Below are positions 11,487 to 12,187 of a DNA stretch of 38,738 nucleotides, piece by piece. Location: positions 1 through 38,738 of the forward strand of contig CANQMW010000027.1 in NCBI GenBank assembly GCA_947625045.1, in the 5' to 3' direction. The translations under genes and the position numbers were made by a program. Position 1 is the stretch's first letter. Every line of letters starts with the position of its first letter. This DNA is from an uncultured Oscillospiraceae bacterium (GTDB taxonomy: Bacteria; Bacillota; Clostridia; Oscillospirales; Oscillospiraceae). The notes below the pieces were generated by a model that worked only from the letters and a program-made list of their open reading frames with translations, had not been told where the DNA came from and searched no databases.

Positions 11487-11689
11487 TTCCACCGGCCCCG
11501 AAAGCCGCGCGCCCTTGGTATCCGCCGGCGAAAGGCGATATTTTCCAGTTCAAACGTGGTTTCGCATCATAGCTATGGTATCCGCGCGCGCGGAAAAACC
11601 CCATGGCAATTTCTCCGCTGGGGAATCCATTGGGTGCAATCTAAATTTGAGGCCGTCAAGGAGCCCGCAAAGCGGATAAATTAATAGTC
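11487..11689. other. Intergenic stretch without a recognised gene
   Basis: Between the palindrome upstream of spoIVB and the terminator at 11690 I see no convincing gene or known RNA. A 73-codon plus frame (11458-11679) lacks a good ribosome site and resembles nothing. Short G+C-rich hairpins (CCGCGCGCGCGG) are present. Confidence 0.4.
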
Positions 11690-11728
11690 AAAAAGAGGTC
11701 ATTCATCAATGATGGATGACCTCTTTTT
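11690..11728. terminator. Bidirectional terminator
   Basis: AAAAAGAGGTCATTCATC (11690-11707) pairs with GATGGATGACCTCTTTTT (11711-11728), one mismatch, with A-runs and T-runs outside the stem. On the minus strand it lies 85 nt past the end of the GG-leader peptide frame and probably ends that transcript. Confidence 0.8.
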
Positions 11729-11812
11729 CTTTTTGTATTGGCGTCACGATAGACAAATCGTGAGTACATCAGTCTGAGTGTTTTGACCGGTCCATGGCCG
11801 CCGTTTCCTCGC

Positions 11813-12002
11813 TCATTGCTGCTCCGTACCCTCGTTCACGCCGAACATCTCTTTTGCGAAGTCCCAGGCCTGGTCTGCCCAGGATTTCTGCGCGGGCGCT
11901 TTCGTCCCGCCGGAGACAGCCTCCAGGGCAACATCATCCAGGGAGGCGTCCTTATGTTCTGGGGTTAGCCCCCCCCCGCAGGGTTTTCTTCTCTTCGTTC
12001 AT
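11813..12002 (-). pseudogene. Frameshifted short peptide gene with a double-glycine leader motif
   Basis: The ATG at 12002 has an ideal ribosome site (CAAAGGAGGAACTACC). The frame reads MNEEKKTLR, enters a run of nine G (plus-strand C run 11969-11977) and ends after 16 codons. Removing one G joins it to a frame that runs to TGA at 11813, giving a 62-aa product whose middle is DASLDDVALEAVSGG, a typical double-glycine leader motif of class II bacteriocin or RiPP precursors. A 30-aa tail follows (TKAPAQKSWADQAWDFAKEM, then FGVNEGTEQQ) without Cys. No processing protease, exporter or modification enzyme is adjacent. The homopolymer suggests slippage, a recent inactivating mutation or a sequencing error. 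Confidence 0.65.
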
Positions 12003-12075
12003 GGTAGTTCCTCCTTTGATCATTCCTATTCAGCGTTATTCCCCCAACAGGGCATAACTCTGAATATCCAGTTAT

Positions 12076-12104
12076 AGTATCGACCGATCTGAGGCAGTTA
12101 TCAA
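12076..12104 (-). promoter_or_regulatory. Candidate promoter of the GG-leader peptide
   Basis: On the minus strand TTGATA (12104-12099), 17 nt, GATACT (12081-12076). The -35 matches at five of six positions, the -10 at four of six. The start codon is 73 nt downstream. Confidence 0.4.
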
Positions 12105-12187
12105 TAGCGTTGTCCCGAATCGTTATAATTTGAACCCAAATGACATTGCCAAAGTTGGGGAGGCTTTCCAATTTAATCGATGATTTT

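Follow-up and report, generated by a model that had tools for sequence, protein, structure and literature searches.

The best-known examples of phase variation through numerous poly-G tracts are pathogens, among them Campylobacter and Neisseria. Campylobacter is not known to have MutS1. A 2010 paper (PMC2831843) presents homopolymeric tracts, by its title, as a general regulatory mechanism in prokaryotes. A close parallel to the gene described here is napR, in the nap island of Neisseria gonorrhoeae, which encodes a double-glycine-leader peptide and has a 5' poly-G tract of 6 to 12 (PMC11798529). There, napR was judged phase-variable from genomes, and its tract decides whether the double-glycine leader is made. 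Bifidobacterium breve has pilus genes with a G-tract inside the coding region, and its slippage during replication was measured in populations (PMC9187656).

The gene studied here lies in a stretch of 38,738 nucleotides (the window) from an uncultured Oscillospiraceae bacterium, whose genome is called G000. The relatives compared with it are G009, G014, G030, and G033. We think it likely that the window gene encodes an exported peptide with a double-glycine leader, that it is phase-variable as a poly-G contingency gene, and that it was assembled in the OFF state. Like napR, it has a 5' poly-G tract in a double-glycine-leader peptide gene. NapR is one gene on one island in a Gram-negative (PMC11798529), whereas in these gut Oscillospiraceae the copies are numerous, scattered or in tandem, and in some the G-run itself codes for the double-glycine site. 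The B. breve pili (PMC9187656) share with our locus an intragenic G-tract in a gut commensal. Here, however, the products are exported peptides and slippage is deduced from assemblies, not from populations. Campylobacter jejuni also has many repeat tracts per genome that switch surface-structure genes; its poly-G contingency loci are the subject of PMC8437040. In the genomes studied here, tracts also occur in promoter spacers and peptide genes, and MutS1 is intact in G000.

NHLP/NHLM systems with Nif11-like leaders (TIGR03796, TIGR03797, TIGR03798) are similar in having both exporter subunits, adjacent double-glycine peptides, and Nif11-like leaders, but the poly-G peptides studied here stand outside the exporter locus. 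Among the literature matches listed, which mostly did not extend to subscription papers, no title concerned poly-G switching in Oscillospiraceae. The class of mechanism is known; the multi-copy peptide use, the scale, the promoter-spacer partners, and the clade look new.

The window gene and its insertion site

The sequence-only reading had described a ribosome site, an N-terminal frame, a run of nine G/C, and a second frame with a double-glycine leader and a 30-aa tail. All of these are present, on the minus strand (Table 1). From ATG to stop the gene measures 190 nt, a multiple of three plus one. Its neighbors are a DctM-type TRAP permease and a SpoIVB-type peptidase, one on each side. Promoter scoring gave TTGATA-17-GATACT, 9 of 12, which is a consensus match only. 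The 15-codon ORF that follows is probably, from its sequence, the remnant of a second double-glycine peptide gene seen 3' of several homologues; such second genes are intact at several homologous loci.

Table 1. Coordinates of the window gene, its surroundings, and poly-G loci elsewhere
Feature	Position	Strand	Basis
Stretch missing from three relatives	11619..12148	.	Comparison with G030, G033, G014
Long hairpin, T runs on either strand, probable terminator	11690..11728	.	
15-codon ORF, starting on ATGA overlap with stop of window gene	11769..11816	-	Read
Peptide gene, ATG to stop, out of frame as assembled	11813..12002	-	Read and homologues
Stop codon	11813-11815	-	Read in sequence
Second frame: LTPEHKDASLDDVALEAVSGG double-glycine leader and 30-aa tail (P0001)	11816..11968	-	51 open codons after tract
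G9 tract (C9 on plus strand), proposed slippage switch	11969..11977	-	Position conserved in homologues
N-terminal frame before tract: MNEEKKTL and first base of next codon	11978..12002	-	
Start codon ATG	12000-12002	-	Read in sequence
Ribosome-binding site AAAGGAGG, strong	12010..12017	-	Read in sequence
Promoter-like boxes TTGATA ... TACTAT	12074..12104	-	By eye; consensus match only
Direct repeat ATTTGGGTT-N12-ATTCGGGAC, period 21 bp, common to other family promoters	12112..12141	-	0/300 shuffles equal score
Promoter-spacer G10/G11 tracts before very large ORFs	L144, L146, L153, L154, L156, L160 (G000 C3, C4, C18, C24, C49)		
AraC-type regulator, poly-G near start, length differs between sister genomes	L148:3011 and L204:1271		
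LytTR response regulator, poly-G near start	L145:3041 and L215:1263		

In three relatives (G030:C19, G033:C51, and G014:C49), the flanks of 11619-12148 are only 12 to 20 bases apart and form a terminator-like hairpin. Because the flanks nearly adjoin there, the stretch is probably a 530-bp insertion at a terminator in G000, carrying the gene with its promoter and terminator. A general element bounded by inverted repeats was considered and rejected, as the inverted pair TTGGGTNCAA flanks the window copy alone (1 of 24 loci).

Curated bacteriocin families gave no fit: the highest NCBIfam score was that of lactococcin G-beta, at 15.5 bits against a cut-off of 37, and Pfam gave no match.

A peptide family with poly-G tracts near the start

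The second frame of the window gene has a paralogue on another G000 contig, with 58% identity. Peptide matches at E ≤0.1 were found in 6 of the 60 genomes searched, its own included, and four of these have two to seven each. Many copies have a G-run at the same place, between an MTDEKK- or MSEEKK-like start and an [LV]TPE leader ending in GG. Tails are of two main kinds, one Trp-bearing, acidic, and mostly ending in EQQ, the other Cys-rich. A tblastn search of the phages collection gave no match to the peptide. When genome_contigs was scanned with the second frame, 252 stretches came up and none was confirmed. Spread of the exact DNA form to other taxa was rejected after a genome_contigs pattern scan. 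It returned 16 stretches, 14 of them in four rabbit-gut (Lapin) uncultured Oscillospiraceae MAGs, which are G009, G014, G030, and G033; the other two encode a double-glycine-leader peptide in no frame.

Reading frames were compared in two sets of copies that overlap in part. The first holds 26 copies whose tracts have at least six G's: the frame is kept in 11 and lost in 15, by one in 8 of these and by two in 7. Since the out-of-frame copies are off both by one and by two, no single programmed frameshift can account for them. The second set covers runs of at least 8 in four genomes, except for 4 of the 51 such runs of G014 and 1 of the 35 of G030. Here 33 of 146 tracts were recognized as leader peptides, by a recognizer that misses some peptides seen by eye (e.g. 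L151:15903 and L216:1664); 15 are in frame and 18 out. Homologues that were all equally broken would have spoken against a switch, and this homologue search found them not to be so. G9 is the commonest length both in frame (12) and out of frame (11).

The EQQ-tail kind, to which the window gene belongs, is out of frame in 11 of 11 copies in G000, G014, and G033. Members in frame were seen only in G009, in 2 of 3. The leaders of these 11 out-of-frame copies, compared in 55 pairs, have a pN/pS of 0.49 when read in the coding frame, and of 1.31 and 1.04 when read in the other two. This supports continued purifying selection on the leaders but does not prove it, because the 55 pairs depend on one another and the copies have probably recombined. 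At L006, L021, and L023 (G014:C11, G033:C1, and G014:C97), one upstream region is found with different tails and one tail with different upstream regions. Such shuffling in G014 and G033 points to recombination between copies.

Other arrangements were also seen in G000. On C13, three Cys-rich peptide genes stand in tandem (L151:15903, 16138, and 16324), and the codons of their double-glycine site lie in the tract; the frame is lost in the first gene and kept in the second and third. Two genes for Nif11-like leader peptides (L143:2835 on C2 and L159:3211 on C45) have an early G9 tract, which keeps the frame in one of them and breaks it in the other. In the comparison with TIGR03798, a Nif11-like leader with poly-G scored 30.6 bits, just below the cut-off of 32.3.

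Upstream of the promoter, 15 of 26 poly-G peptide genes (a set that leaves out most inner genes of tandem clusters) have a direct repeat near ATTC[AG]GGTC-N12-ATTCGGGAC, with a period of 21 bp, just upstream of the -35 box. Its score was reached by 0 of 300 shuffles in 14 genes and by 2 of 300 in one. The 11 genes without it are seven Nif11-like genes, three inner genes of tandem clusters, and L070. With two mismatches or fewer allowed, the pattern occurs 7, 8, 23, and 16 times in G000, G030, G014, and G033, against 2, 5, 1, and 0 times for the reversed control. At least one site precedes a gene of another kind. Sites of LytTR proteins (ComE/AgrA-like) are direct repeats of about 9 bp with a 21-bp period, just upstream of the -35 box. 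In period and placement the repeat found here resembles them and may be a putative site of this type; G000 has 7 LytTR proteins.

The sequence-only reading had seen no export genes nearby and proposed a search elsewhere for a C39 transporter. One is present in G000 (G000:C34), adjoining a second ABC protein. The two pass the NCBIfam cut-offs as an NHLP exporter pair (952.9 against 853.3 bits and 751.1 against 709.4 bits), and three double-glycine peptides without poly-G come after them. C39 matches were found in 5 of the 6 genomes with peptide matches; in G009, which is 78% complete, peptides are present and no C39 match was found. The window gene has the properties of a double-glycine exported peptide, namely a GG leader, small size, a good ribosome site, and a C39 ABC transporter in its genome. 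The poly-G peptides may be cargo of the NHLP-type exporter.

Poly-G tracts across genomes

G-runs of length nine or above number 28 in G000, and a single run has length eight. Dinucleotide shuffles of the window average 5.09 matches to a nine-C run, and 1 was found. Since such a run is not rare, the G9 tract alone proves nothing. For the genome, the expected number of runs of at least 9 is about 14 to 143 under Markov models of order 0-4 and about 1.9 under order 5, so that the count in G000 is not above the low-order expectation. The case rests on comparison, that is, on the run at the same place in homologues and on a run-length spectrum with two humps. In a sample of 233,795 bases of G000, picked so as to include those of length 8 and above, G-runs with an exact length of 3, 4, 5, 6, 7, 8, 9, 10, and 11 number 6346, 1693, 471, 81, 0, 1, 10, 15, and 3 (both strands). 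Across 35 genomes of the genus, runs of at least 9 range from 0 (8 genomes) to 45. In an order sample of 394 genomes counted by eye, 169 have no runs, 7 have 20 or more, and G000, with 28, is among the top two. Loss of MutS as the cause was rejected, as MutS1 is full length in G000 and 32 of 35 genus genomes are above the cut-off.

The sequence-only reading was right to point to a tract but treated a single gene, and this proved too narrow, as the set is genome-wide and includes promoters of large secreted-protein ORFs, regulators, and transporters. Of the 29 G000 runs of at least 8, 8 lie in GG- or Nif11-like-leader peptides, the tandem trio included. Further tracts touch two regulators (AraC-type and LytTR) and two dicarboxylate symporters. 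Promoter spacers were tested at 28 of the 29 G000 tracts (all except that of the window) and at 36 tracts in G033. Seven of the 28 sit between a TTG-type -35 and a TANAAT-type -10 box with a spacing of 17 or 18 bp. Each of the seven beats shuffled flanks at ≤0.032, where about 1 of 28 is expected at p 0.032 (uncorrected). In G033, only 2 of 36 tracts attain a promoter score of 9. Six of the seven each precede one long ORF, no shorter than 966 codons, whose start resembles a signal peptide by eye; four of these large ORFs extend beyond the stretch read. The seventh precedes a 169-codon ORF, which is followed by one of 1,908 codons.

Other genomes of the order Oscillospirales also have such tracts. 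At L290 and L292 (G336) and L298 and L301 (G383), poly-G separates promoter boxes ahead of secreted-type ORFs and also falls within ORFs resembling, by eye, a glycosyltransferase and a DNA methyltransferase.

Tract lengths, all taken from assemblies, were compared between orthologous tracts that pair one to one and whose flanks are each at least 85% identical, in the pairs G000/G030 and G033/G014. They differ in 8 of 22 ortholog pairs (5 of 12 and 3 of 10, respectively). This amounts to 8 tract events in 205 bases against 62 flank indels in about 6,600 bases, and 3 of the 9 pairs without any flank indel differ in the tract. A Cys-rich peptide has G10 and a 14-codon ORF in G014, and G9 and a 72-codon ORF in G033, with flanks 98-99% identical. 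From the same ATG, the AraC-type regulator has 31 codons with G9 in G000 and 312 with G10 in G030 (flanks 97-99%); in G000, an alternative ATG 13 bases further upstream gives a 316-codon ORF. A tract upstream of a dicarboxylate symporter gene is G11 in one orthologue and G9 in the other (flanks 97-100%). From the ATG preceding its tract, the LytTR gene is out of frame in G000 and G030 alike, and an ATG downstream of the tract may serve as its start.

As in contingency loci, the frame is set by the length of a 5' tract, and this length differs between near-identical alleles in sister genomes, a comparison that covers other loci since the window locus is absent at this site from G030, G033, and G014. 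Comparison supports the earlier proposal of a slippage-prone tract in a double-glycine-leader gene, through homologues that are not all equally broken, variation in tract length between orthologues, and the C39 exporter elsewhere in the genome.

Explanations for the tracts and their meaning

If the window gene is a contingency gene, a tract length that keeps the frame would let the ribosome make leader and tail, and with other lengths translation would stop shortly past the tract. The tail would leave the cell through the NHLP-type exporter, whose C39 domain would cleave the precursor after GG. DNA polymerase slippage on the G-run within a population would change its length reversibly, so that each family copy would switch on its own and peptide sets would differ among the cells of a population. 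The peptides may have a role in competition or signaling. The conserved G-run, copies in and out of frame side by side, leader selection, and ortholog length differences all argue for this reading, as do the two-humped run lengths, the promoter-spacer tracts, where no frame is at stake, and the NHLP exporter pair. Against it are tract lengths that come from assemblies, the uniformly out-of-frame EQQ-tail copies of G000, G014, and G033, G9 as the commonest length in both states, and G009 without a C39 match. The window copy also has no second gene, and no curated bacteriocin family or Pfam entry fits.

Another explanation is that the DNA itself does not switch and that transcriptional slippage or frameshifting on the G-run steadily yields mixed products. 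It would accommodate the G9 that prevails in and out of frame, as well as the 11 EQQ-tail copies of three genomes, all out of frame with their leaders selected, if a minority product suffices. We consider it unlikely, since offsets by one and by two do not fit a single programmed frameshift, promoter-spacer tracts require no frameshift, and orthologues differ in tract length. An unusual RNA hairpin at the tract was also rejected: three tracts were folded, with z-scores of 0.29, -0.47, and -0.25, no better than shuffles.

We think it quite improbable that the family is a normal one and its window copy a pseudogene in decay. This copy has lost its frame, and the next double-glycine peptide gene is probably cut down to 15 codons, yet the start, ribosome site, promoter repeat, and entire second frame are intact, and the sole lesion lies at a tract that is conserved and variable across the family. 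We give the least credence to the idea that an ordinary gene was misread in sequencing or assembly. The metagenome-type assemblies and error-prone homopolymers could speak for it, but out-of-frame tracts recur in several genomes and an error would not yield a family-wide tract, a two-humped spectrum, or tracts in promoter spacers.

Beyond the contingency gene itself, we tentatively suggest, as a possibility somewhat short of even, that this clade of gut Oscillospiraceae has a population-diversifying system. It would comprise mobile, shuffled double-glycine peptides with their own poly-G switches, one NHLP-type exporter, and an often shared direct-repeat site. Very large secreted proteins would be switched by poly-G in their promoter spacers, and further tracts would stand at LytTR and AraC regulators. 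Each cell would then have another combination of peptides and surface. In this uncultured gut bacterium, many of the 28 runs of nine or more G's lie where genes for exported peptides, surface-type proteins, and regulators begin. If the tracts switch, gene callers have recorded many such genes as missing or broken in metagenome assemblies, and these commensals would vary their secreted peptides and surface cell by cell.
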